From Patescibacteria group bacterium (GTDB lineage Bacteria; Patescibacteriota; Minisyncoccia; Moranbacterales; UBA2206): a DNA stretch of 46,217 nt. The DNA lies in NCBI GenBank assembly GCA_030837625.1, contig JAUPKF010000002.1:64168-110384 (forward strand), in the 5' to 3' direction. Position 1 is the first letter of the stretch, and each line of letters starts with the position of its first letter. A program made the translations under genes and the position numbers. This document shows positions 18,047-31,443 of the stretch, piece by piece. The notes beneath the pieces are model-generated. The model did not search any database. It was given only the letters and a program-made list of their open reading frames with translations, and was not told where the DNA came from.

Positions 18047-20581
18047 CTATGGAATGTTGGTGTGAATGTCGATGGATTTAGAGGCGCCGTCTCCGGTTTC
18101 ATTTTCGGCGCTGACTTCTATTTCGATTGTTGAAGATTTTTTTGAATCCGGAACAGAATAGGAATAGCTGATTTCCGAGTCGGAAGACTCTTCCACTGTT
18201 TCCCCATCTATTTTTATTTTAATCTTCTCAATGTCATAGTCGGAAGAAGCCTTGGCGCTGATCGTGAAAGAGGAGGAGGTTATTTCTTCTCCGTCGGAGG
18301 GACTTTTGATGCTGATAGAAACATCGGAATCGCCGAAATCATCGGACTGGCACTTTTTGGTTGGCGCGTCATTGCCCTTGTAATCCTTGTTGTCTTCCAC
18401 CCATTTTTCCACGGCTTTTTCCCAATTTTTGAATTGAGGGTCTTTCCCTGGATCTTTGGGAATCTCTCCGCGCGGGTCATCTTTGTTGACGTAGTAAAGA
18501 ATAGTGTGGGCGCTGGTGAACTTTTTCTTTTCCACCTTGCTGTCAGGGCAAGCGTCCGTCGCCAGGCAATACTTGTCTTTTTTCCCGGGAATTTCACAGA
18601 CCTTTATTTCTTCTTTCACTTCAAAATCTCCCTTTAAAATATTCTTCTCAATATCTTTGTCTTCCTTGTACTCTGGAAAATTTTCAATAGCGTAATTTTT
18701 AATCGCGGTTTCCATAAAACTTCTCCAAATAGGAGCGGCAACATAGGAACCGTCAGCGCCTTCGGCCATAATGGAGTTGTCGTTGTTTCCCGCCCATACG
18801 CCCACAGCCAGAGATGGCGTGTAGCCCATTGTCCAACCATCCCGCCATTCATTGGTGGTGCCGGTTTTAGCGGCTACCGGACGGTTGTCAAAACGCAAGG
18901 GATTGTTTTCTCCGAATACCGGCGCGCGAAGCGCGTTAGTGGAAAGGACATAGTCAACCATCGCCACGTATTTTTCCTCAATTACCCGGTCGCCTTCCTT
19001 GTTTTCGTATTTTTCCAAGGTTTCTCCTCGGCCGTTTTCCACTCGAAGGATGGCGGTTTTTTCGCGCCGGATTCCGCCGGTGGCCAGGGTGGAAAAAGCG
19101 TTGACATGGTCAAGCAATTTCACTTCTCCTCCGCCCAAAACCAAGGATAATCCGTAACGATCAGGTTCGTTAAGCGTTTCAATGCCCATTTTTTTGGCGG
19201 TTTTTATGGACTCCTGAACGCCGGCCAGATATAGTGTTTTCACGGCCGGAACATTGAGCGAACGCGCCAAGGCGTCTTTCATTCTAAGCGGACCGCTATT
19301 TTTCCCATCGTAGTTTTTAGGGTTGTATTCTTTGCCGTCTTCAGTGGAGAAATTTGTGTCCACATCCCAAATCAAAGTTTCCGGCGTGTATCCCTTGGTG
19401 AAGGCGGTAAGATAAACATAGGGCTTAAAAGAAGATCCCGGTTGGCGGTCGCGAATAGCCACGTTTACCTGGCCGTCAATCTTGGTGTCAAAATAGTCTT
19501 TGGATCCGACCATCGCCAGAATTTGTCCGGTTTTTGGATCCATAGCGACCAGCGCCGCATTCTCGGCTTTGTATTTGGTCAGGTTTTTTTCCGCTCCTTC
19601 TCGAACCGCCCGCTCGGCCAGTTGTTGTTTGTCCCAATCCAATGTGGTATAAACTTTGAGGCCGCCCTGCTCCACTTCATCTTCGCCGTATTTTTTCTCC
19701 AGATATTCCTTGACATACATCACAAAATGCGGAGCGCTGATATTCTCCCGGTGCGGAGAGAGGCGCGAGAAAATGTCTTCCAGTTTAGCTTCTTCGGATT
19801 GCTCCTTGGTGACATAACCTAGTTCCGCCATGCGGTCAAGAGCGTATTCCTGGCGGGCTTTCAAGAGTTCCGGATACGAGCCGTAGGGTGAGTAGCGCGA
19901 GGGTGCCTGGGGAAGCGAGGCCAGCATAGCCGACTCCGCCAGATCAAGTTCTTTGGAATGTTTGCCGAAAAAAGTTTGGGCGGCAGCTTCGATGCCGTAA
20001 GCGTTGGAACCGTAGGGAATAGCATTGAGGTACATTTCCAAAATTTCGTCTTTCTCGAATTTTTGTTCCAGCTCAACAGCCAAAATCACTTCTTTGATTT
20101 TTCGGGTGAAAGTTTTTTCCGAAGTGAGCATGGAATGCTTGATAAGTTGCTGGGTGATGGTCGAACCGCCCTGGGCTTTGCCGCCCAGCGCCACATCTTT
20201 GAAGACCGCCCGGACAATGGAGCTTAGTTTTATTCCCTGGTGGGAATAAAACTCGTTGTCTTCCAGGGCGATGGTGGCGTAACGGATGGCCTCGGGCATT
20301 TCCGAATAGGGGACTTGCGTCCTTTTTTCTTCGCCGTGGATTTCATAAAGCAGGTGCTCTCCGGAACGGTCGTAAATCTTGGTCGATTCCACCACAAACC
20401 GGTTATTGAGGCTTTTGGGGCTGGGCAAATCTTTGGCAAACCAGGCAAAAACTCCCGCCACGGCCAAAAATCCGGCCACAGAGCCGAAAAGCGCTATTTT
20501 TTTGGTGAGCTTCCAGTTGAAATTAAGTTTGAATTTTCTGGAAGAAGAATCCCGATTTTGAGGGTTGAATATTTTTTGCAT
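18047..20581 (-). CDS. Class A penicillin-binding protein (PBP1A family) with Ig-like tail
   Basis: The 844-aa bifunctional murein synthase has a basic cytoplasmic N terminus and one transmembrane helix (about 28-49). The GT51 glycosyltransferase domain shows the catalytic EDNEFYSHQG (Glu107) and GGSTITQQLIKH (138-149). The transpeptidase domain has SSFK (Ser383 nucleophile), SLN (441-443) and KTGTT (572-576). After residue 650 comes a Cys-containing segment (CEIPGKKDKYC, CPDSK) and a C-terminal Ig-like/Big domain (about 750-844, SPSDGEEITSSSFTISAKAS). It polymerises and cross-links peptidoglycan outside the membrane. It lies between uppP and the ATP-grasp operon, all on the minus strand, which hints at wall-related roles for those ligases. 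Confidence 0.94.
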   Translation of the reverse strand: MQKIFNPQNRDSSSRKFKLNFNWKLTKKIALFGSVAGFLAVAGVFAWFAKDLPSPKSLNNRFVVESTKIYDRSGEHLLYEIHGEEKRTQVPYSEMPEAIRYATIALEDNEFYSHQGIKLSSIVRAVFKDVALGGKAQGGSTITQQLIKHSMLTSEKTFTRKIKEVILAVELEQKFEKDEILEMYLNAIPYGSNAYGIEAAAQTFFGKHSKELDLAESAMLASLPQAPSRYSPYGSYPELLKARQEYALDRMAELGYVTKEQSEEAKLEDIFSRLSPHRENISAPHFVMYVKEYLEKKYGEDEVEQGGLKVYTTLDWDKQQLAERAVREGAEKNLTKYKAENAALVAMDPKTGQILAMVGSKDYFDTKIDGQVNVAIRDRQPGSSFKPYVYLTAFTKGYTPETLIWDVDTNFSTEDGKEYNPKNYDGKNSGPLRMKDALARSLNVPAVKTLYLAGVQESIKTAKKMGIETLNEPDRYGLSLVLGGGEVKLLDHVNAFSTLATGGIRREKTAILRVENGRGETLEKYENKEGDRVIEEKYVAMVDYVLSTNALRAPVFGENNPLRFDNRPVAAKTGTTNEWRDGWTMGYTPSLAVGVWAGNNDNSIMAEGADGSYVAAPIWRSFMETAIKNYAIENFPEYKEDKDIEKNILKGDFEVKEEIKVCEIPGKKDKYCLATDACPDSKVEKKKFTSAHTILYYVNKDDPRGEIPKDPGKDPQFKNWEKAVEKWVEDNKDYKGNDAPTKKCQSDDFGDSDVSISIKSPSDGEEITSSSFTISAKASSDYDIEKIKIKIDGETVEESSDSEISYSYSVPDSKKSSTIEIEVSAENETGDGASKSIDIHTNIP

Positions 20582-20669
20582 AATATTTTTAACTTATTTC
20601 AAAGTGCCTTGTATTGTAGTATAGAAAGAGGGAATTTTCAATGCGAAGTCAAGCTTTTTTCAAAAAGGA

Positions 20670-21548
20670 TCAGCTTCTATTTTTGTGGTATTTTTTTAGC
20701 GCGTAAGCGATGATTTCTTTGGCTGGGTTTATTCCAGTTACGCGCTTGAAGGCATGCCATTGAGGGGAAATATTTACTTCAATTACATACCAGCGCTTTT
20801 TGCTCTCATCCCAAGCCAGATCAACTCCGGCCACATCATAATGCAGTGTCTTAGCTGCAGACAGGGCAACTTTTTTTGTTTCAGAGGTTAATTCGAAGTT
20901 CTCTACTTCTGATCCAAGCGAAGCGTTGGAACGGCAATCTCCTTTCTGGACATACCTTTTCATTCCCCCTAAAACCTTATTTCCAACTACAAAGATTCTG
21001 ACGTCCCAAGCTATTCTTAAATATTCCTGGATCAAAAAATCCTCATCGGTTTTCGAAAGAAATTCAGCCAATTTCTTCCTGTTCTTTATTAAATTAATAT
21101 CCCTGCCTCTTGCTCCATTAGCGGGCTTGGCAATGACCGGAAAAATATTGTCTGGCAAAGAGCTAAGGTTGTCTATATTATTTATTTGGTAGGTCTTCGG
21201 ATAGTGGAGGTCTTTTTTTATAATTCTAACTCCTTCGGCGAGCTTGCTGTTTATGTATTTGTCTGAAATGCAACTTTCAATAACAATTTTTTTGCGCGAT
21301 CTCAGCTCTTCAATGAAAATTCTGGAATTAGCCATGTTTTCCGAGAAGTATCTGAAAATATAAATGTCAAAACCAAGAAGATTCTTAATATCTGGCGTAC
21401 TTACGCTTAATTCTCCATCGCTTATCTTAAAAATAAAATCACGAGTTTTTGAAAAAACGCAAATATGGCCCCCGGATTCTATTTCTGCTTGCAAATCCTG
21501 CGACAACATACCCCTATTCGAAGTTACAATAAGAAATTTAATTTGCAT
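20670..21548 (-). CDS. RimK-type ATP-grasp ligase
   Basis: The 292-aa protein has an N-terminal pre-ATP-grasp Rossmann-like region (FLIVTSNRGMLSQDLQAEIE), then a central ATP-grasp with IAKPANGARGRDINLI (Lys and Gly-rich loop). FLIQEYLRIAWDVRIFVVGN, GGMKRYVQKGDCRSNASLGS and the terminal VAGVDLAWDESKKRWYVIEV with INIS-type metal ligands complete it. This order is that of RimK/LysX enzymes, which join amino acids (Glu, Lys-type) to a carboxylate through an acyl phosphate. It is the last gene of a run of four ATP-grasp genes and overlaps the previous one by 11 bases, so the enzymes are probably made together. The substrate cannot be read from the sequence. Confidence 0.85.
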   Translation of the reverse strand: MQIKFLIVTSNRGMLSQDLQAEIESGGHICVFSKTRDFIFKISDGELSVSTPDIKNLLGFDIYIFRYFSENMANSRIFIEELRSRKKIVIESCISDKYINSKLAEGVRIIKKDLHYPKTYQINNIDNLSSLPDNIFPVIAKPANGARGRDINLIKNRKKLAEFLSKTDEDFLIQEYLRIAWDVRIFVVGNKVLGGMKRYVQKGDCRSNASLGSEVENFELTSETKKVALSAAKTLHYDVAGVDLAWDESKKRWYVIEVNISPQWHAFKRVTGINPAKEIIAYALKKYHKNRS

Positions 21549-22515
21549 AAGATTGATCCAATAGCTGGAGTTTCTTTTTGAAAACTTTTAGAAGCTCGCG
21601 GTACATTTCAATCATACATGGTTTTTCTTCCGGAGTGAAAAAAAGTCCTGGCATAGAATTTAACTCGACCACCCAAGGTTGTTTTTTTTCATCAAACATA
21701 AAGTCTATGGAGTATATTCTTGGTTCGAAGGCGGCAAAAATTTTATTTGCATGTTTTATTACGGGGAAGATAGTCCGGGGCAGTTTATTCTCAGGTACGA
21801 TCTTCAGGCTTCCGCCTTGAGCTAAATTGGCTAGAAAGCTGCCTTCTTGAGGTTCTCTAATATATGAATACATTAGTTTGTTATTGATGAAAACCAACCT
21901 CAGATCATGCATCTTTTGGCTTACCCCGGGAACGCCTCTTGATGAATCGATAAAGTCTTGCACTATATAGGGGCTGTTTATTTTAGGAAGTTCGCCATAT
22001 TTTTTTTTCTCAATAATAAAGATTCCGTTGCCCCCGCTTTCACTCAAAGGCTTGGCGACTAATTTGGAGGAGCTTATGTTTTTTAGAGTCATTTTCAAGT
22101 CAGTGTTATTTTTTATGACCCAACTTCTTTTGCTCCATTTGGAAAACAGCAGGCTAGTAATAAATTTATCATCAATGAGACGGGTAAAACAGAGATCGTT
22201 TATGAAAGGGTAGTGTTCCCCTATCAATTCTTTTTTATAGTATGTTTCCATCCTAGCTTTGGTTTTGTCGTAGATTAAATCGGGCTTGATATTGTCGACT
22301 TTTTTCCAATTTCCGCCCTTGCCTTCGAAGACCCAGGCATGTTTAAAAATATGATTTTTATAATCATACCATTCGTAAGAAGCGCGATACATCTGGATGC
22401 CTCCTTTCTTGCAGATATCATAAAAGTATTCGTATGAATACATATAATCCTTATTGGAGAATGGCTTGGCTTTTCTCCAATCGCTCTTGCCAAAAAGAAT
22501 CATTACTTTTTTCAT
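21538..22515 (-). CDS. ATP-grasp ligase, glutathione synthetase/YheC-like
   Basis: The 325-aa protein opens with MKKVMILFGKSDWRKAKPFS, a start shared by amino-acid ligase-like proteins. The ATP-grasp core shows LVAKPLSESGGNGIFIIEK, PYIVQDFIDSSRGVPGV, MHDLRLVFINNKLMYSYIRE and the metal-binding SIDFMFDEKKQPWVVELNSM (Asp...Glu-x-Asn), ending PGLFF. All residues expected for Mg-ATP binding seem present, so it should be active. Position between two other ATP-grasp genes, with an 11-base overlap downstream and a 19-base gap upstream, indicates a common pathway. The acceptor is unknown. A role in modifying a peptide or a wall precursor is inference. Confidence 0.75.
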   Translation of the reverse strand: MKKVMILFGKSDWRKAKPFSNKDYMYSYEYFYDICKKGGIQMYRASYEWYDYKNHIFKHAWVFEGKGGNWKKVDNIKPDLIYDKTKARMETYYKKELIGEHYPFINDLCFTRLIDDKFITSLLFSKWSKRSWVIKNNTDLKMTLKNISSSKLVAKPLSESGGNGIFIIEKKKYGELPKINSPYIVQDFIDSSRGVPGVSQKMHDLRLVFINNKLMYSYIREPQEGSFLANLAQGGSLKIVPENKLPRTIFPVIKHANKIFAAFEPRIYSIDFMFDEKKQPWVVELNSMPGLFFTPEEKPCMIEMYRELLKVFKKKLQLLDQSYAN

Positions 22516-22534
22516 GTTTTTGAAATTATAAAAA

Positions 22535-23500
22535 TTACTTTAAGTCGGAGTTCTTTTTCAGTTCTAATATAAACTCAATAATATACCGGACTACATCCCT
22601 AGTTTTTCCATGGGTGGGGTTGTAGTGAATGTATAAATCGGGTCTGCGGTTAGCTTCTAGGATATTGATTCTCTGTTTTGACGGGCTTTTTGTTATGTCG
22701 TCGCATATAATATCCAGTCCTGTTAATTTTTTATCAACAGCCTTAGCCGCTTTTACGCATAGCAATTTTATTTCCTCGTTGACGATATCGGTTGAATCTG
22801 CAGTCTCTCCTCCTTCGGCGAGGCAAGAGCTTGTTCTTAAAAATATTTCTTTGCCTTCTTTTGGCGTACTGGCCAGCGTCTCTCCCTGTTTTTGCAATAA
22901 CTCCGTGAGAACTGCATCGAGAGGAGTTCTTTTCTCTGTATTCTCTTGCTTTTTTTCAATAAGTTCTTTGGTGGTGCTTTCTCCATTTCCGAAAATTCTC
23001 GGAGGAATCATTTCCAGAGCTCCAATGATTTTATCTTCTAACACCAATATTCTGTATTCTTTTCCAAAAATCATTTCTTGAGTTACGAGACAAGGGAATT
23101 TCTCTATCTCTCGCAAAATAAGTTGCTTGGCGTCTCGCGAGTTTTTTATATCCGTAAAAACACCCAAGCTGTATGAACCGCTGGCATCCTTTACGACTAT
23201 GGGGTAGGAAAGTTTTCCAAGCTCCTCGTTTAGCTTTTCTTCAGTGATGGTTTTTCTGTAAAAACAGACCGTGTTGGGCGTCGGAATATTATTTTCTTTT
23301 AAAAATATGTAAGTCAGATCCTTGAAATTCGTCGGCTGTTTTCTGGAAAATAAATCACTGTCTATCACAAATTTTTTGTTGATGAATATTTTTTCTCCTC
23401 TTAACTTGATGTAATAGTAGCTTCTCTCGGGAATAATTTTTTCAATCGTTCCGCCCATCTCCTGAACGACTCTTTTGATAATTCTTTGGTTTTTTATCAT
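22535..23500 (-). CDS. ATP-grasp ligase, cyanophycin-synthetase/GshAB-like
   Basis: In this 321-aa protein the ATP-grasp fold is visible from about residue 60: KENNIPTPNTVCFYRK, LSYPIVVKDASGSYSLGVFT (ATP-binding Lys) and LVTQEMIFGKEYRILVLEDK. IIGALEMIPPRIFGNGESTT follows, a stretch strongly typical of cyanophycin synthetase and GshAB (family form RxPPxVxGDGxST). The end, LTGLDIICDDITKSP with INILEANRRPD, gives the Asp and Glu-x-Asn metal ligands. Its start overlaps the stop of the upstream ligase-protease gene by 4 bases. The cyanophycin-type branch adds amino acids to a growing chain, which suggests repetitive peptide-bond formation; the real substrate is unknown. Confidence 0.78.
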   Translation of the reverse strand: MIKNQRIIKRVVQEMGGTIEKIIPERSYYYIKLRGEKIFINKKFVIDSDLFSRKQPTNFKDLTYIFLKENNIPTPNTVCFYRKTITEEKLNEELGKLSYPIVVKDASGSYSLGVFTDIKNSRDAKQLILREIEKFPCLVTQEMIFGKEYRILVLEDKIIGALEMIPPRIFGNGESTTKELIEKKQENTEKRTPLDAVLTELLQKQGETLASTPKEGKEIFLRTSSCLAEGGETADSTDIVNEEIKLLCVKAAKAVDKKLTGLDIICDDITKSPSKQRINILEANRRPDLYIHYNPTHGKTRDVVRYIIEFILELKKNSDLK

Positions 23501-24909
23501 TTATTCACATCAATTAAGAATTTAGATAAATTCTTTCGGCCTATAATAATATTCTTTTCCAGTTCTTTTCTCTCGGCAATGTTCATCTGCGTGGATGTCT
23601 CTATTTTATCCAGAATAAATGTTATGTTTACTTTAGGTCGGATAGATGATCCGTGAGAGGAATAAACAACAACAATATCGGCAAGATCAGGATGCTTGCC
23701 TAAGTAGCTCTTTTTCAGAGCTTCTTCTACTCCCCTGGATTCTTCACGGGAAAAATTTGCTGGTAAATCCAAAGATGAGAAGAAGTCTATGACACTTTCA
23801 AATCCTAGCTGTTTTGCCAGATCAGTATCAATTGAACTGGAATACGCTCCTGTGTCGATCTTGGCTTCCACTTCGATTTCCTTCCCGTCTTTTCCGATGA
23901 GCTTTACTTTTTCCACTGTGCCGATGACTTTTTTGCCGGAGATGTCTTCCAACTCCTCTTCGATTTCGCCGCCAAAGAGGTCCATCCCGACTCGCACTCC
24001 CTTTTCCACGGTTTTGATTTTGAGTTCCGAAACGCGCTCCAGTCTTCTCTTGAGACCGGAGAGGTTGGCGACTTGGATGGCCAAACCCGGGCGGGCGTTG
24101 AGTTCTAGAAAAACCGGTCCGCGGTCTCGATCCAAGGCGATGTCGGCGCCGAGAAACCCGAGACCTGAAGCTTTCTGGGCTTTTACCGCCATTTCGAGAA
24201 TTTGTTTCCAATAAGGAATTCTTATGCCGGACAGAATCAGTCTTGTTTCTGGCAGATATTCGATTATTTTTGGTTTCTGGTGGCCCATAATCGCGGTGGT
24301 GGTGGTACCGGTGGCCATATCGATGCCGCAGCCGATGCCGCCCAAATGCAAGTTGGCTTTCCCGCCGGAAGCCTGAGTGGCGAGGCGGAGCATAGCCATT
24401 ACGGGAACGCCGTTATAAACAATAACTCGCACGTCCGGCATGCCTCTGTAGGAATAGGGCTTGAAAATTTTGGAAAGTTTTATTCTCTCTTCAAAAAAAG
24501 CGATATCGGGCGTGCTGGAAAGGGAGAACGAGCCGAAAAGAATATTTCGAATATGGTTTTTCAAATCTTCTACGCTGACCGAGGATCGGTCGGCTTTTAT
24601 CCAAACATTTTCCGCATTTTTTTTCTTGCCGTAAACTACAATAATTCCTTCTCCGCCGAATCCGCGGTTGGGTTTCAAGGCGAAACTGTCCGGCAGTTTG
24701 CTCCAATCAAAACTTTCCAATTCTTCCTGAGTCCTTATTTTGGCGATAAGTGTGGGGATAGGAAGCTCGGCTTTTTTGAGAATCCTTTTGCTGAGAAGCT
24801 TGTCATCGGCGATTCTTTTGGCGGATTTCAGATTGAGCGGCCGAATATACTCGAGATTTCTCGAGTTCATCCCCAATATTCTTCTGGATTTTTTTATAAA
24901 ATTAAGCAT
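23497..24909 (-). CDS. Alpha-L-glutamate ligase-like ATP-grasp fused to a retropepsin-like (RimB-type) domain
   Basis: From the ATG at 24909 the protein is 470 aa. A longer frame from 24939 reads MDTFVDSNRI out of an intergenic repeat and is unlikely. Residues 1-310 match the RimK-related glutamate ligase family: KPNRGFGGEGI (79-89), a basic DVRVIVYNGVPVMAMLRLAT, GLGFLGADIALDRDRGPVFL and LELNARPG (268-275). Residues about 325-470 match the RimB/ATP-dependent Zn-protease-like family of retropepsin folds, with KIDTGAYSSSI (350-360, active-site Asp-Thr-Gly) and NIIIGRKNL (453-461). In other bacteria these are separate neighbouring genes beside a 7TM protein; here they are fused and the 7TM gene lies just upstream. 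The fusion suggests coupled ligation and processing of one substrate. Confidence 0.85.
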   Translation of the reverse strand: MLNFIKKSRRILGMNSRNLEYIRPLNLKSAKRIADDKLLSKRILKKAELPIPTLIAKIRTQEELESFDWSKLPDSFALKPNRGFGGEGIIVVYGKKKNAENVWIKADRSSVSVEDLKNHIRNILFGSFSLSSTPDIAFFEERIKLSKIFKPYSYRGMPDVRVIVYNGVPVMAMLRLATQASGGKANLHLGGIGCGIDMATGTTTTAIMGHQKPKIIEYLPETRLILSGIRIPYWKQILEMAVKAQKASGLGFLGADIALDRDRGPVFLELNARPGLAIQVANLSGLKRRLERVSELKIKTVEKGVRVGMDLFGGEIEEELEDISGKKVIGTVEKVKLIGKDGKEIEVEAKIDTGAYSSSIDTDLAKQLGFESVIDFFSSLDLPANFSREESRGVEEALKKSYLGKHPDLADIVVVYSSHGSSIRPKVNITFILDKIETSTQMNIAERKELEKNIIIGRKNLSKFLIDVNK

Positions 24910-24911
24910 AA

Positions 24912-25030
24912 TCCGATTCGAATCTACGAATGTATCCAAATCTACGAATGATTCAAAGGAGCGTGTTTATGGGGTACTACCCATGCTCTTTTATTCGTGA
25001 ATTCGAATGTATTCGTAGATTCGTATCGCG
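24912..25030. repeat. Intergenic inverted repeat, family C (CGAATCTACGAATG)
   Basis: The left arm (CGAATCTACGAATGTATCC, AAATCTACGAATG) pairs with TTCGAATGTATTCGTAGATTCG on the right (within 25000-25025), around a GGGTACTACCC-like centre near 24973. Relatives built of CGAAT/ACGAA units lie at 32085-32131, 37331-37491 and 44803-44882, and inside polA and mutM. It sits within the ATP-grasp/7TM operon and encodes the spurious N-terminal extension of the ligase frame. Confidence 0.85.
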
Positions 25031-25681
25031 TCACATGTTTTTTATAACTTCCTTAAATCTCCAGTATTCGGTCAAGCGCAATCCGGTCCACTTTCCCAAA
25101 ATAATGTTTATCGGGATAGTGGCGAGAATCGCCCAGGGGTAACTGGCGAGAAACCGGATAAGAAACTCGGAGCTGGCGATAAAGTAGCCGACAATAGAAA
25201 TCCCAAGGGTTTCCAATGCCAGAATTATCGCCATTTTGTTGCCCTTTTCTATCTGAACTGTGATGAATTTTTCCACGATTGTGATCATAATGAGGATGGG
25301 GAAAATGGAAACGGAAGCTAGTCCTGTCCTTCTCATTCCGCCGCCCAAAACCAGAACTCCCAAAATCAAAATCGCCACGGCGGTGAGCATAATGGCGACA
25401 CGGGGAAGGTAGAGCAGACGAAACGGCCGGAGGACGAAGCGCATTACCATCCCGGCCAAAATCACGGCCGCGAAAATAGCGATGCCGTATTTGATTCCGT
25501 TGGTGGCGAGGAAGGCGAAAGTGACGATGAGCGGCGTATAGATTCCAAAAGCCTTGATGCCGACCACCTGGCGGAGAAAGGCAATGAAAGTGGCGATAAT
25601 AGGCAGCATTAAAATCAAGATGACTGTTTCCAAAGGAACGCCTTCTCGGAGAAAAAAGTTGATGATAGGACTGACATTCAT
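25031..25681 (-). CDS. 7TM protein of the inactive-transglutaminase/7TM family, without the transglutaminase domain
   Basis: The 216-aa protein has seven hydrophobic helices. The stretch from residue 35 reads FLRQVVGIKAFGIYTPLIVT, then FAFLATNGIKYGIAI and MRFVLRPFRLLYLPRVAIML. These motifs (RQVVGIxxFGxxxP, RLLxxPRxA) are the core of the 7TM domain normally fused to an inactive transglutaminase domain. The family is known to travel with RimK-related ligases and RimB-type retropepsins. Here the transglutaminase part is absent, leaving a bare membrane domain. It is the first gene of the ATP-grasp operon, upstream of the fused ligase-protease, and likely anchors the pathway to, or exports its product across, the membrane. 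Confidence 0.8.
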   Translation of the reverse strand: MNVSPIINFFLREGVPLETVILILMLPIIATFIAFLRQVVGIKAFGIYTPLIVTFAFLATNGIKYGIAIFAAVILAGMVMRFVLRPFRLLYLPRVAIMLTAVAILILGVLVLGGGMRRTGLASVSIFPILIMITIVEKFITVQIEKGNKMAIILALETLGISIVGYFIASSEFLIRFLASYPWAILATIPINIILGKWTGLRLTEYWRFKEVIKNM

Positions 25682-25858: not shown

Positions 25859-26371
25859 TTACTTCATACTCGCCATCTTCCGGCTGTTGATATGGCATAT
25901 CGCGATGGCGATGGCGTCGGCGGTGTCGTCCGGTTTAGGGAGAGCGTTTAGTTTTAGGATGCTTTTGGTCATCTCTTGAATTTGTTTTTTGTCCGCCCGC
26001 CCGTATCCGGTAAGAGCTTGTTTTATCTGGAGGGGCGTGTAGCTTGCGATTCTAACACCATTTTGCTTTAAAGTCAAGATGATCGCGCCGCGGCTTTGAG
26101 CTACCTGGATGACGGTTTTTTGGTTTTTGAAAAAGAAAATCTGCTCGATGGCGGCTTCTTCGGGACGGTGCTTTCCGATGATTCTATTAAGATCCGAGGA
26201 TATCTCCAAAAGCCGGTCTTCGTCGGAGTTGTTTTTGCTGGTACTGATGTGTCCGTAGGCGATAGTTTTCATTTCCCCCTTGTTATCTTCCTCGATTACC
26301 GCCCAACCTGTGGTGGCAGTGCCGGGATCAACGCCTAATATGCGAAGGCTTTGAGTATTTTGTTCAGTCAT
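25859..26371 (-). CDS. ruvC: Holliday junction resolvase RuvC
   Basis: The 170-aa protein starts its fold with LRILGVDPGTATTGWAV (catalytic Asp15). AAIEQIFF follows (Glu76), then the C-terminal acidic pair in DDTADAIAIAICH (Asp149, Asp152), matching the four acidic residues of RuvC. It cleaves four-way junctions after branch migration by RuvAB. The usual partner yebC lies upstream across a family B repeat, and ruvB is encoded about 6 kb away on the same strand. ruvA is not in the window. Confidence 0.96.
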   Translation of the reverse strand: MTEQNTQSLRILGVDPGTATTGWAVIEEDNKGEMKTIAYGHISTSKNNSDEDRLLEISSDLNRIIGKHRPEEAAIEQIFFFKNQKTVIQVAQSRGAIILTLKQNGVRIASYTPLQIKQALTGYGRADKKQIQEMTKSILKLNALPKPDDTADAIAIAICHINSRKMASMK

Positions 26372-28900: not shown

Positions 28901-29422
28901 TCACAGTAAAATATTTTCTGGATTATTCCGATCCCGTTCCCAATCGGCGGGATTGTTTTGAATATATTCTCGTATGCGGTTTAATTCTGATTCGTTTCGG
29001 ATGATGCGGTCGTAATAATTGCGTTGCCACAAGGGATTGCCAGATCTGTTTAAAGAAATATTAATTTCTCTGGCAGATAACATTTTAAATTTCCCAACGA
29101 TTTTTGGTATCAGCATATTGCGTCGATGTTTCCGTAGGGGCAATTCATGAATTGCCCCTACGGAAACGGAATGTATAATTTCAATTATCAGATGAACGTG
29201 GTTTTGCATGACAATAAATTCATCCAATTGGGTATTCGGGAAATATTTTTCAATATTTTTCAATTCCCTTAGCACAATTTTACCCGCGTCATTCAAAAAC
29301 ATTGTTCCATCGATAATATTTCCTAATAATTCTTCTCGGTTCTTCGCACAGATCGTCACAAAATACATTCCATTTTGGGAATAATCATAATTGGCGAGAC
29401 GGTTTAATTTGCGGTTTTTCAT
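28901..29422 (-). CDS. REP-associated tyrosine transposase (Y1/HUH family)
   Basis: From the ATG at 29422 the protein is 173 aa. A longer frame from 29473 overlaps the lamin-tail gene and is less likely. Family features are SQNGMYFVTICAKNREELLG, the HUH metal motif in QNHVHLII, a WQRNYYDRIIRNE stretch with the candidate nucleophilic Tyr, and IREYIQNNPADWERD at the end. These enzymes nick single-stranded DNA at REP hairpins. A 38-bp palindrome lies in frame within the gene (residues near VGAIHELPLRK) and a related one at its 3' end, so the enzyme appears to have been invaded by its own substrate. It starts 2 bases after the lamin-tail stop. Confidence 0.88.
   Translation of the reverse strand: MKNRKLNRLANYDYSQNGMYFVTICAKNREELLGNIIDGTMFLNDAGKIVLRELKNIEKYFPNTQLDEFIVMQNHVHLIIEIIHSVSVGAIHELPLRKHRRNMLIPKIVGKFKMLSAREINISLNRSGNPLWQRNYYDRIIRNESELNRIREYIQNNPADWERDRNNPENILL
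29129..29166. repeat. Perfect 38-bp palindrome inside the RAYT gene
   Basis: TTTCCGTAGGGGCAATTCA is followed directly by its exact reverse complement. It encodes AIHELPLRKH between the HUH motif and the Tyr region of the transposase, and matches the REP at 28863-28890 in its outer and central bases. Confidence 0.92.
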
Positions 29423-29424
29423 TT

Positions 29425-31443
29425 TTATATCCGATTGATAGCCCAATTCAAGCCGGAATTTATTTTTGTCCAAAAAGCGTTGAACAGCGCGATTGCCCAG
29501 TGTTTTTGGATGGCGGGGGCGGTGAAAGTATAAAAATTTTCGTATTGTTTTACGGCGGACGCGCCCAGGACGCGGGGTTGGTTGGTAAAATCTGCGCCGG
29601 CAAGTTTTATGGTTACGCCGTAATTCACCAGGTTATTTCTGTTGCGCTTTTTTTCTTCCCAATCGCCGGCGGGGGTGTATTTTCCAAGAGCGGCAGTGAT
29701 TTCTTCTTCGGTTAGGTTTATATTCGCGTTATTATTTTTTTCAGAACCCGTATTCTCCGCGCTATCTTGTTCGGAGGAGGCGACCTCGGAGGTCTGCGGC
29801 TGCAGACCTCCGAGGTCTGTTTCTGCTGGCGGCGCTACCCATTCCCATCCGTCCTCTCCTTTTTCATAAATCTCGTATTCTTCCATCTTTTCTTTTTTCT
29901 TGTCATAGTTCAATTTTTGGACAACTTTGCCGTCGGGCGAGCGGAGTTCGATTTTCGTTTTGACATTGGCGAGAGTGAAAGCGCAAATTTCGCGGGTGAG
30001 CTTTTTGGTTTTTCCGGCTTTGATTTCAAAATCTTCCCTGATCGGGTGGTTTACCAAGTTTTTTGTTCCGGTAGCGATCGACCAGTTTTTGAGGTTGACT
30101 TTCTTTTTGGTTTTGTTTTCAATTTCAATCCACTCATTGCCGGTGTCCTTGCCTTTTGGGTTGGGAGAAATTTTTGTGATCCTCACATCCGGCTGGGGAT
30201 ACTTTTCCACTTTCACTTCGAAATCATACAAAGCATCTTCGCCGTCGCCGGTAATTTTCAAACTGGCTTGATATTTTCCAGCTTTTTCGTATTTATGGCG
30301 CGTAACTTTGAGATAACTTTTATGCCCGTCGCCAAAATCCCAGGTGAATTTCTTGGCGTTTTTGTGGACGTCGCTGGCTTCAAAGTTGGCGTAAATGTTG
30401 GCATAAATATTTTTGTCTTTTTTGACTCTCCCGGAAAGAGTTGGATCAAATTCATTCTCCGCGCCCGGAGTGAGTTTCGAAGTCCACCGCCAGCTTGAAC
30501 CGTCAAAAGCGTACGCGTATTTAGATTTGGCTTTGTCGTATTTTATTTCGTCGACAAGTTTGTTATTTTCATCATACAGGGAAACCGTATCGCCGGTAGA
30601 ATTTAAGGAGAAGCTGTCATATTTGTGAAAATATTTCGTTACCCCGGTCTTTTCTTTGGCTAAAACCTTCTTGTTATTTTTTTCGTCTAATACGTACCAG
30701 CCGAATATGTCGATCTTTTCACCGCTTAGATTCAGGAGCTCAATAAACTCTTTTTCTCCGTTTGATGGTGAAGGAAGCAGTTCGTTTATTGTTATCTTTC
30801 CAGCGTAATCGAGTTTTTCATCATCATTATTTTCGTCATCATTTTCTTCTTCCGGTTGGCCGTGAGTGGGAGTGGGAACATCTAAAATATTGAAATCCTC
30901 TGAGTTATTGTCAGTATCTTGGAAATTTTTTCTTTCAATGCTTTGATTTTCCCCCGGGTTCGGATAAGGGAGATTTTCATAGTCCTTAGCTATTCCGAAG
31001 CCAATTTTATCGATAACTTTTTCATTATTGTCGTATAAAATAACTGTATTGTTGGTTGAAATTGAGTATGACGATCCGGAATAAGCTAAATCGGCAAAAA
31101 AGGCGGTCTTGTAATCAGGGTGGGCAATCAAGAAATAATCATGAGCGCGGATGGTGCCTGAAAATTTGGAAGAAGAAATTAGGCTACTCTCTGTTCCAGT
31201 GGAAGCTTTTTTGGTTAACTTATAATCAGAGAGGCTAATATCTAAATTGGACAGGTTGTATAGTTCTATAAATTCATATCTTGATTCGTCCTCTTTTTCA
31301 ACCATTACTTCATTTATAATCACAGTAGGTTCTTCCGCCAGACATATTCTCCAAAAACAAAAAACCGCCAATGTCAAAATTGGCAGTGTGAATATTAGCC
31401 TAAAAACAAAAAACCAAGTTTTGTTTTTGTTTCTAATTCTCAC
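29425..31443 (-). CDS. Secreted protein with three lamin-tail domains and a PKD domain
   Basis: The 672-aa protein has an N-terminal signal peptide (about 1-37, ending CLAEE). A first lamin-tail (LTD) domain follows (about 38-165: VIINEVMVEKEDESRYEFIE and LYNLSNLDISLSDYKLT), then an acidic Asp/Glu/Asn linker and a second LTD (about 218-330: ITINELLPSPSNGEKEFIEL). A PKD domain comes next (about 350-400, FTWDFGDGHKSY) and a third LTD (about 410-520, ITKISPNPKGKDTGNEWIEI). The C-terminal 130 residues hold a low-complexity Ser/Asn/Glu segment with an in-frame palindrome, then a hydrophobic-leaning tail. Such LTD proteins are common at CPR cell surfaces, where they are thought to bind envelope or extracellular material. 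No catalytic domain is visible. Confidence 0.85.
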   Translation of the reverse strand: MRIRNKNKTWFFVFRLIFTLPILTLAVFCFWRICLAEEPTVIINEVMVEKEDESRYEFIELYNLSNLDISLSDYKLTKKASTGTESSLISSSKFSGTIRAHDYFLIAHPDYKTAFFADLAYSGSSYSISTNNTVILYDNNEKVIDKIGFGIAKDYENLPYPNPGENQSIERKNFQDTDNNSEDFNILDVPTPTHGQPEEENDDENNDDEKLDYAGKITINELLPSPSNGEKEFIELLNLSGEKIDIFGWYVLDEKNNKKVLAKEKTGVTKYFHKYDSFSLNSTGDTVSLYDENNKLVDEIKYDKAKSKYAYAFDGSSWRWTSKLTPGAENEFDPTLSGRVKKDKNIYANIYANFEASDVHKNAKKFTWDFGDGHKSYLKVTRHKYEKAGKYQASLKITGDGEDALYDFEVKVEKYPQPDVRITKISPNPKGKDTGNEWIEIENKTKKKVNLKNWSIATGTKNLVNHPIREDFEIKAGKTKKLTREICAFTLANVKTKIELRSPDGKVVQKLNYDKKKEKMEEYEIYEKGEDGWEWVAPPAETDLGGLQPQTSEVASSEQDSAENTGSEKNNNANINLTEEEITAALGKYTPAGDWEEKKRNRNNLVNYGVTIKLAGADFTNQPRVLGASAVKQYENFYTFTAPAIQKHWAIALFNAFWTKINSGLNWAINRI
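29782..29817. repeat. Palindrome with perfect 16-bp arms inside the lamin-tail gene
   Basis: GACCTCGGAGGTCTGC and its exact reverse complement flank a 4-base loop. It encodes DLGGLQPQTSEV in the low-complexity linker after the third lamin-tail domain. Confidence 0.9.

Follow-up and report, generated by a model that had tools for sequence, protein, structure and literature searches.

Five genes, here called A to E, are packed on the minus strand at positions 20670-25681 of a 46,217-nucleotide stretch of a Patescibacteria group bacterium genome (contig JAUPKF010000002.1; hereafter the window), next to the gene for PBP1A. They encode a seven-transmembrane (7TM) protein (A), an ATP-grasp ligase fused to a retropepsin-like protease (B) and three further ATP-grasp ligases (C, D and E). 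We found that A and B are an old and widespread pair, whereas C, D and E are not their fixed partners but one version of a highly variable cassette. In addition, an exchange of the distal half of the B protease between lineages is well supported. We lean, by a small degree, toward the view that A and B form the core of a membrane-linked apparatus for making and trimming an acidic poly-amino-acid chain, which the exchange of ligase cassettes would diversify in the manner of a capsule locus.

An earlier note on this DNA, made from the sequence alone, had described the five packed genes with overlaps of 11 and 4 bases. An open reading frame (ORF) check returned the same positions, with overlaps of 11 nt between D and E (21538-21548) and 4 nt between B and C (23497-23500), and gaps of 121 nt between A and B, 19 nt between C and D, and 88 nt between E and PBP1A. 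Relatives were sampled at one genome per species, probably mostly metagenome assemblies, and their gene calls are simple ORF picks.

The ligase-retropepsin fusion and its 7TM neighbour

The ligase part of B matches ATPgrasp_ST (1.3e-69) and the RloC-type ATP-grasp family TIGR02291 (8.3e-86; 287.8 bits, slightly below the curated cut-off of 314.2). The C-terminal part matches Zn_protease/RimB (PF05618; 30.2 bits, above the cut-off) and RloA3 (4e-6), and the retropepsin profile from 64 relatives matches the solved RloA structures 9g58 (6e-11) and 9g59 (1.5e-10), and also Legionella 2pma and Ddi1. The AlphaFold2 (AF2) model of this domain, computed as a monomer, has a pLDDT of 90.5, and a Foldseek search with it returned RloA2 (2.8e-6), RloA, 2pma and HIV protease (about 1e-4), with modest TM-scores of 0.4-0.6. 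The D, G and A of the DTGA motif and two arginines are invariant in all rows of the alignment of relatives (64/64, alignment A1). In 9g58 the arginines lie at +66 and +89 from the catalytic Asp, the same spacing as in D48, R114 and R137 of RloA. B in the window carries Lys two residues before the catalytic Asp, DTGA and both arginines, corresponding to the K46/R114/R137 plus DTGA set of RloA. In the Pseudomonas enzyme, R114 and R137 bind polyglutamate, and substituting them hit polyglutamate cleavage hardest (PMC12239564). Profile, fold and polyglutamate-binding residues thus confirm that the retropepsin in B is real, in agreement with the earlier note, which had recognized the fusion and placed the DTG at about residues 351-354 (now 352-354). 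The domain has no cysteine, and hence no cysteine pair, and no membrane helix was seen in B. Since the ligase needs ATP, the fused protease most likely acts in the cytoplasm.

A matches Pfam 7TM_transglut (3.6e-30, profile positions 58-247), upholding its earlier assignment to this 7TM family, and matches NCBIfam RloB at positions 308-508 alone, the last ~200 residues of that protein. No transglutaminase or other extramembrane domain was recognized in A by the Pfam/NCBIfam scan. Its AF2 model (pLDDT 90.8) has no significant Foldseek relative; the ten best hits were all Rnf/Nqr membrane subunits (TM-score ~0.34-0.5, best E ~1), a similarity so weak that we did not use an Rnf/Nqr-like fold. The basic C-terminal tail, GLRxxEYxRF, is conserved, with R202, R208 and F209 invariant (alignment A2), and could dock B on the membrane. 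Relatives of A fall into size classes of 184-257, 282-343 and 504-563 a.a. Six long forms were scanned: five have a PKD domain and one has no other Pfam domain. The three middle-sized forms scanned consist of the 7TM part alone, and a transglutaminase was recognized in none of either group.

A full-length or almost full-length B was recovered in 52 of 55 close relatives, placing the identification of the locus far above chance; the closest named relative found, Candidatus Moranbacteria bacterium RIFOXYA12_FULL_44_15, is 79% identical over B. Across the phylum, B occurs in 115 of the 380 sampled genomes, but it was absent from all genomes listed for the other orders of its class. Of 40 distant loci in the phylum, from many families, 37 have A directly upstream of B. 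Within the order to which the window belongs (kin of Candidatus Moranbacteria), A and B are present in all 40 relatives' loci and PBP1A in 38, with one to six genes between B and PBP1A; outside the order, PBP1A is not next to the pair except at locus L130. The fusion and the loss of the transglutaminase, which had been taken as features of this locus, are therefore both present here but not peculiar to it. As separate observations on B, one relative (L116:7408-10173) encodes a 921-a.a. B in which the retropepsin is intact and another ATP-grasp domain, unlike the first, is joined to the C-terminus, and genome G206 has two copies of B (L107 and L108) with differing surroundings.

In other lineages a MATCAP-type metallopeptidase replaces the retropepsin. 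At ten distant loci B is extended to ~770-1030 a.a. by a MATCAP-type domain that follows the retropepsin (Pfam matches of 2e-60 to 5e-35 in the six that were scanned). All ten carry the HExxxH and E/QEG(L/I)A motifs, together with a degenerate retropepsin in which the DTG is changed or out of context and the flap region is shortened. At two further loci (L121 and L139) the catalytic Asp is changed to Asn and the next gene is a MATCAP. All 12 loci with a degenerate DTG thus have MATCAP, fused in ten and next door in two, although these loci are related to each other and the counts are not independent events. Among the unfused B proteins, 66 of 71 keep DTGA (65 by search pattern, and L112, which the pattern missed) and three others have DTG-I; MATCAP is also found beside intact retropepsins, at L038, L051, L069 and L100. 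The MATCAP-family TMCPs are deglutamylases, whose eukaryotic members shorten polyglutamate chains (PMC10499314), and RimB and RloA cut polyglutamate (PMC11957791, PMC12239564), suggesting that the simplest common substrate would be a glutamate-rich chain made by the ligase.

A variable ligase cassette with its junction inside the protease

C matches the ATP-grasp part of cyanophycin synthetase (4e-47; best solved relative 7wac, 5.6e-32); against the full three-domain enzyme, it matched positions 214-475 of 862 alone (160.7 bits versus a cut-off of 850). D matches RimK (1e-11) and YheC (5e-8), with no solved relative found, and E matches RimK (4e-36; solved relative 5zct, 4e-17). The metal-binding D...E-x-N residues of ATP-grasp enzymes are present in B, C, D and E (4/4). 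The profile matches and these residues bear out the earlier description of C, D and E as cyanophycin-synthetase-like, YheC-like and RimK/LysX-like ATP-grasps. These four ligases are the only PF08443 matches in the whole genome, so that all four of its RimK-type ligases are in this locus.

The 110 cassette proteins encoded between B and PBP1A in 41 genomes of the order fall into 49 clusters at 45% identity. Cassettes usually differ even within a genus, while A, the B ligase and PBP1A stay; six genomes of one genus carry the clusters [2,6], [24,25,10], [5,6], [2,6], [1,13,18] and [1,38,39,40]. On the ligase-domain tree of B, 12 changes are required to account for the 13 genomes with cluster 1, and 9 for the 10 genomes with cluster 2, about one change per occurrence, and gene content differs between genomes with ligase domains 94-97% identical. 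An ATP-grasp gene was recognized by profile in 40 of the 41 cassettes, the remaining one (L046) having a weak ATP-grasp match. In three genomes the C-like gene is immediately followed by a gene for a Mur-type ligase, which is homologous to the second half of cyanophycin synthetase, and other cassette members include MATCAP peptidases, glycosyltransferases, DUF3541 and a YdjC-like protein. The earlier note had counted three ligases added to the first and had made conservation of the gene set in relatives a test of its reading: four ligases are indeed present and A-B-PBP1A survives, but C-D-E is one allele of the cassette and is not kept as a set, and we rejected a fixed five-gene operon.

Several genes near B in relatives deserve mention in their own right. 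Members of two genera (L033:10531-11402 and L043:4435-5299) have an E-like ligase gene that is interrupted at about the same codons (DIRxFVVGN), and the E-like gene of L131 is also split. The lesions of L033 and L043 differ, with a base missing in one and an extra T in the other, so we rejected a programmed frameshift and regard gene decay or assembly error as likelier. A 114-132-a.a. protein with ~4 membrane helices follows E-like ligases downstream of B in two distant families (L104, L106 and L135). A ~500-a.a. ATP-grasp protein with a weak ATP-grasp_3 match lies next to or near B in unrelated families (L046:6154-7644, L100:6527-7984, L109:7043-8548, L123:10640-12184 and L137:7484-8944), the one in L046 resembling PRK06524.

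The variable region begins within the protease, immediately past the catalytic DTG; both identity and GC content fall there, and both recover at PBP1A. In a comparison of the window with L033, from the same genus, B identity is 75-100% (mostly at least 90%) to about residue 350 and 25-48% thereafter, and PBP1A is again ~90-98% identical over most of its length. Close pairs behave in this way, with B identities mostly at least 90% to about residue 350, then 25-50%, and high again in PBP1A. In three pairs the DNA similarity stops at B residues 347, 353 and 354; several pairs become similar again 68-111 nt ahead of PBP1A, approximately where the promoter-like site of PBP1A lies. The pairwise identities of A, the B ligase and PBP1A correlate at 0.62-0.74, whereas the distal protease shows correlations of 0.08-0.12 with these three. 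Pairs that are sisters in the ligase tree were rejected as sisters in the distal-protease tree by approximately unbiased (AU) tests (6e-5, 3e-4 and 3e-43). The distal protease of L033 shares 78% identity with the distal proteases of two genomes from another genus, but ~37% with that of its own genus mate. Averaged over the 41 genomes, the ligase part has a GC content of 43.5% (47.5 in the window) and PBP1A one of 43.1% (48.2), against 34.6% (36.3) for the distal protease and 35.3% (37.7) for the cassette; the cassette is below the B ligase part in 41/41 genomes.

Table 1 Features of the locus in window coordinates
Feature	Position	Strand	Basis
A, 7TM protein of the RloB/PF14402 kind, 216 a.a.	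25031..25681	-	Pfam, NCBIfam, AF2, alignment A2
B, RloC-like ATP-grasp ligase + RloA/RimB-like retropepsin, 470 a.a.	23497..24909	-	Profiles, AF2, Foldseek
Ligase domain of B, residues ~1-300, slowly evolving and inherited together with A and PBP1A	24010..24909	-	ATPgrasp_ST at 17-294; distance correlations of 0.62-0.72 with A and PBP1A
Retropepsin domain of B, residues 311-470	23500..23979	-	Profile vs PDB 9g58; Foldseek vs RloA2
Catalytic DTG of the B retropepsin, residues 352-354	23848..23856	-	Alignment A1, D42/G44/A45 invariant 64/64
Arg 424 of B, counterpart of RloA R114	23638..23640	-	A1 invariant R114; same column as the 9g58 RPV arginine
Arg 447 of B, counterpart of RloA R137	23569..23571	-	A1 invariant R137; aligned with the 9g58 TDR arginine
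Distal retropepsin half (flap + C-terminal part), start of the exchangeable low-GC block	23497..23847	-	Identity drop, GC 36% vs 47.5% in the ligase part, AU tests
C, ATP-grasp resembling the cyanophycin-synthetase backbone (poly-aspartate) domain, cassette cluster 2	22535..23500	-	Profiles
D, RimK/glutathione (GSH)-synthetase/YheC-like ATP-grasp, cassette cluster 1	21538..22515	-	Profiles
E, RimK/LysX/MptN-like ATP-grasp, cassette cluster 3	20670..21548	-	Profiles
Promoter-like site TTGAAA-17-TACAAT before PBP1A, approximate 3' edge of the exchangeable block	20613..20641	-	Promoter-like motif; return of DNA similarity 68-111 nt before PBP1A
PBP1A, conserved 3' flank	18047..20581	-	Downstream in 38/40 relatives' loci
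RuvC, conserved 5' flank of the A-B pair	25859..26371	-	Neighbourhood survey

Elsewhere in the window, the ORF at 28901-29473 reads, by eye and from its translation only, as a REP-associated tyrosine transposase.

What the locus may make

In the mechanism that we propose, the ATP-grasp domain of B would add amino acids with ATP in the cytoplasm to a chain that most likely contains runs of glutamate, and the fused retropepsin, or the MATCAP metallopeptidase in other lineages, would cut the chain back. RimB likewise cuts back the product of RimK, and also stimulates its synthesis (PMC11957791). A would be the membrane partner, perhaps an exporter or anchor, and C, D and E may add further residues to the same chain, extending or branching it. 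The ligase set would be determined by horizontal exchange of the low-GC cassette via conserved flanks, with RuvC, A and the B ligase domain on one side and PBP1A on the other. Together with the ligases, the exchange would bring in the substrate-facing half of the protease, which would set its specificity, so that the cutter would change with the polymer. Diversifying selection by phages, hosts or grazers would account for such exchange, as for capsules. A bolder version, which we hold tentatively and at somewhat less than even strength, is that this is a polyamide serotype locus: a surface poly-amino-acid coat would be varied by ATP-grasp cassette exchange, and each such event would also replace the specificity half of the protease, keeping polymer and cutter matched.

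Several points weigh against this mechanism or its bolder version. The product and activity are inferred here from the genes, and an export role for A, which has no significant fold relative, is a guess. The association between protease allele and cassette exceeds the expectation from ligase distance (Mantel p 0.006) but is modest, the enrichment of protease class X with cluster 2 (5/6 vs 5/35, Fisher p 0.002) concerns a class picked after inspection, and genome L056 breaks the link. The three loci seen in family f51 (L114, L133 and L136) have nearly the same gene set, and hypervariability was demonstrated for this order alone. With one genome per species, exchange within species is unseen. 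Finally, where cassettes include glycosyltransferases, the product may be a glycoconjugate.

The cassette ligases might instead modify peptidoglycan, at the stem or cross-bridge peptides of lipid II that PBP1A would then polymerise, in which case the variation would be that of the cross-bridge and no separate polymer would be made. ATP-grasp D-aspartate ligases that act on cross-bridges are known, the cassette lies beside PBP1A in 38/40 loci, and the five Mur_ligase_M genes of this genome fit a peptidoglycan pathway of its own. Mutants of rlo also show cell-wall phenotypes (PMC12239564). We nevertheless consider this unlikely, as the retropepsin has polyglutamate-binding residues, cross-bridges do not usually vary so fast, and PBP1A stands beside A-B outside the order only at L130. 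The earlier note had read a possible wall-linked product from PBP1A and UppP next door. The PBP1A adjacency proved to be conserved in the order, but PBP1A has its own promoter-like site, so proximity alone is weak evidence for such a product; UppP adjoins in only 2/40 loci and was rejected as a functional partner.

An intracellular storage polymer of the cyanophycin type would explain why C is closest to cyanophycin synthetase and why, in relatives, the genes beside it match the Mur half of this synthetase. This appears improbable, because C lacks the other domains, no Mur-half gene is found at the locus of this genome, many cassettes are without the cyanophycin-like gene of cluster 2, and cassette turnover and a conserved membrane partner fit storage poorly.

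Several ATP-grasp ligases in a fast-changing cluster would also suit a graspetide locus, in which the ligases crosslink ribosomal precursor peptides (ribosomally synthesized and post-translationally modified peptides, RiPPs), and the candidate phyla radiation is reported to contain such loci (PMC8939145). However, the gaps of 19, 88 and 121 nt in the window contain no coding-strand ORF of at least 15 codons, and among families the ligases match RimK, cyanophycin synthetase and RloC best, rather than graspetide maturases, making this quite improbable.

The exchange itself might be only apparent, if the distal protease half and the downstream genes evolved fast in place or the metagenomes were misassembled. 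Most of the genomes do appear to be metagenome assemblies, and the protease flap is variable in RloA too. We regard this as very improbable, since gene content differs at 94-97% ligase identity, the same protease class occurs in different genera, the AU tests reject the ligase-tree sisters for the distal protease, and the GC step falls at the same places in 41/41 genomes; misassembly would not repeat a junction at the same codons. Modification of ribosomal protein S6 (RpsF) in the manner of RimBK, for which the RimB/RimK-like domains and the existence of RimBK hybrids (PMC11957791) would speak, can be set aside as the least probable, as S6 of this genome ends in LEEILNI and not in glutamate, the domain order is reversed, the ligase is RloC-like, and a conserved 7TM partner hardly fits S6.

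Relation to known systems

The link that had been drawn to amidoligase/retropepsin/7TM systems holds, and such systems are now characterized as rloABC of Pseudomonas, comprising the RloA retropepsin, the inactive transglutaminase-7TM protein RloB and the RloC ATP-grasp (PMC12239564). The locus shares with rloABC a 7TM protein of PF14402 and an RloA-like retropepsin with the same polyglutamate-binding residues, in one operon with a ligase that is TIGR02291-like but scores slightly below the curated cut-off. It differs in that the protease is fused to the ligase C-terminus, whereas RloA is separate and secreted with a signal peptide; the protease lacks cysteines, like cytosolic RimB and unlike secreted RloA; the 7TM protein is without the inactive transglutaminase of RloB; and an exchangeable ligase cassette adjoins, with the exchange junction within the protease. 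As both the secreted protease and the transglutaminase fail, the locus is a relative of rloABC and not a member.

The RimBK hybrids of Desulfotalea psychrophila, Flavobacteriales and Rhodobacterales (PMC11957791) likewise join an ATP-grasp glutamate-type ligase and a retropepsin in one chain. There, however, RimB is N-terminal to RimK, whereas here the ligase comes first and the protease last; the ligase is RimK there and RloC-like here, and no 7TM partner or variable cassette was reported. With cyanophycin synthetase CphA (PMC9262961, PMC9427784), C shares homology to the backbone ATP-grasp domain, and the next-door gene in relatives is homologous to the Mur-ligase domain, but here the parts are split into separate genes, other domains are missing, and this is one of many cassette types. 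The MATCAP/TMCP peptidases (PMC10499314) correspond to the HExxxH and E(Q)EGLA domain that accompanies B, fused or as a neighbour, at loci with a degenerate retropepsin motif, although ours are bacterial and fused to an ATP-grasp ligase, and the shortening of polyglutamate is known from eukaryotic members.

Capsule and O-antigen loci (e.g. E. coli group 3 capsules, PMC10433991) resemble the locus in their conserved flanks, low-GC variable centre and exchange between lineages, with close relatives carrying different gene sets and distant ones sharing alleles. Here, however, the variable genes are mostly amino-acid ligases and not glycosyltransferases, the 5' junction lies in a protease domain, and a surface product is inferred. 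We found no description of this locus in the literature on candidate-phyla variable loci and ligases, a search that largely did not cover subscription papers and is no proof of absence.

Variable surface loci have so far been seen mainly to vary sugars, whereas the variable genes here are mostly amino-acid ligases. This suggests that a very large uncultured group, with a surface chemistry that is scarcely explored, has a class of amino-acid polymers that are diversified; if the proposed serotype locus is real, it would be a capsule-like antigenic system built from peptide ligases instead of glycosyltransferases. The ligase-fused protease, the exchange at its catalytic motif and its replacement by a deglutamylase-type peptidase also provide a strong and testable hint to the substrate of the unexplained RloABC proteins, a system that matters for stress tolerance and antibiotic sensitivity in Pseudomonas.

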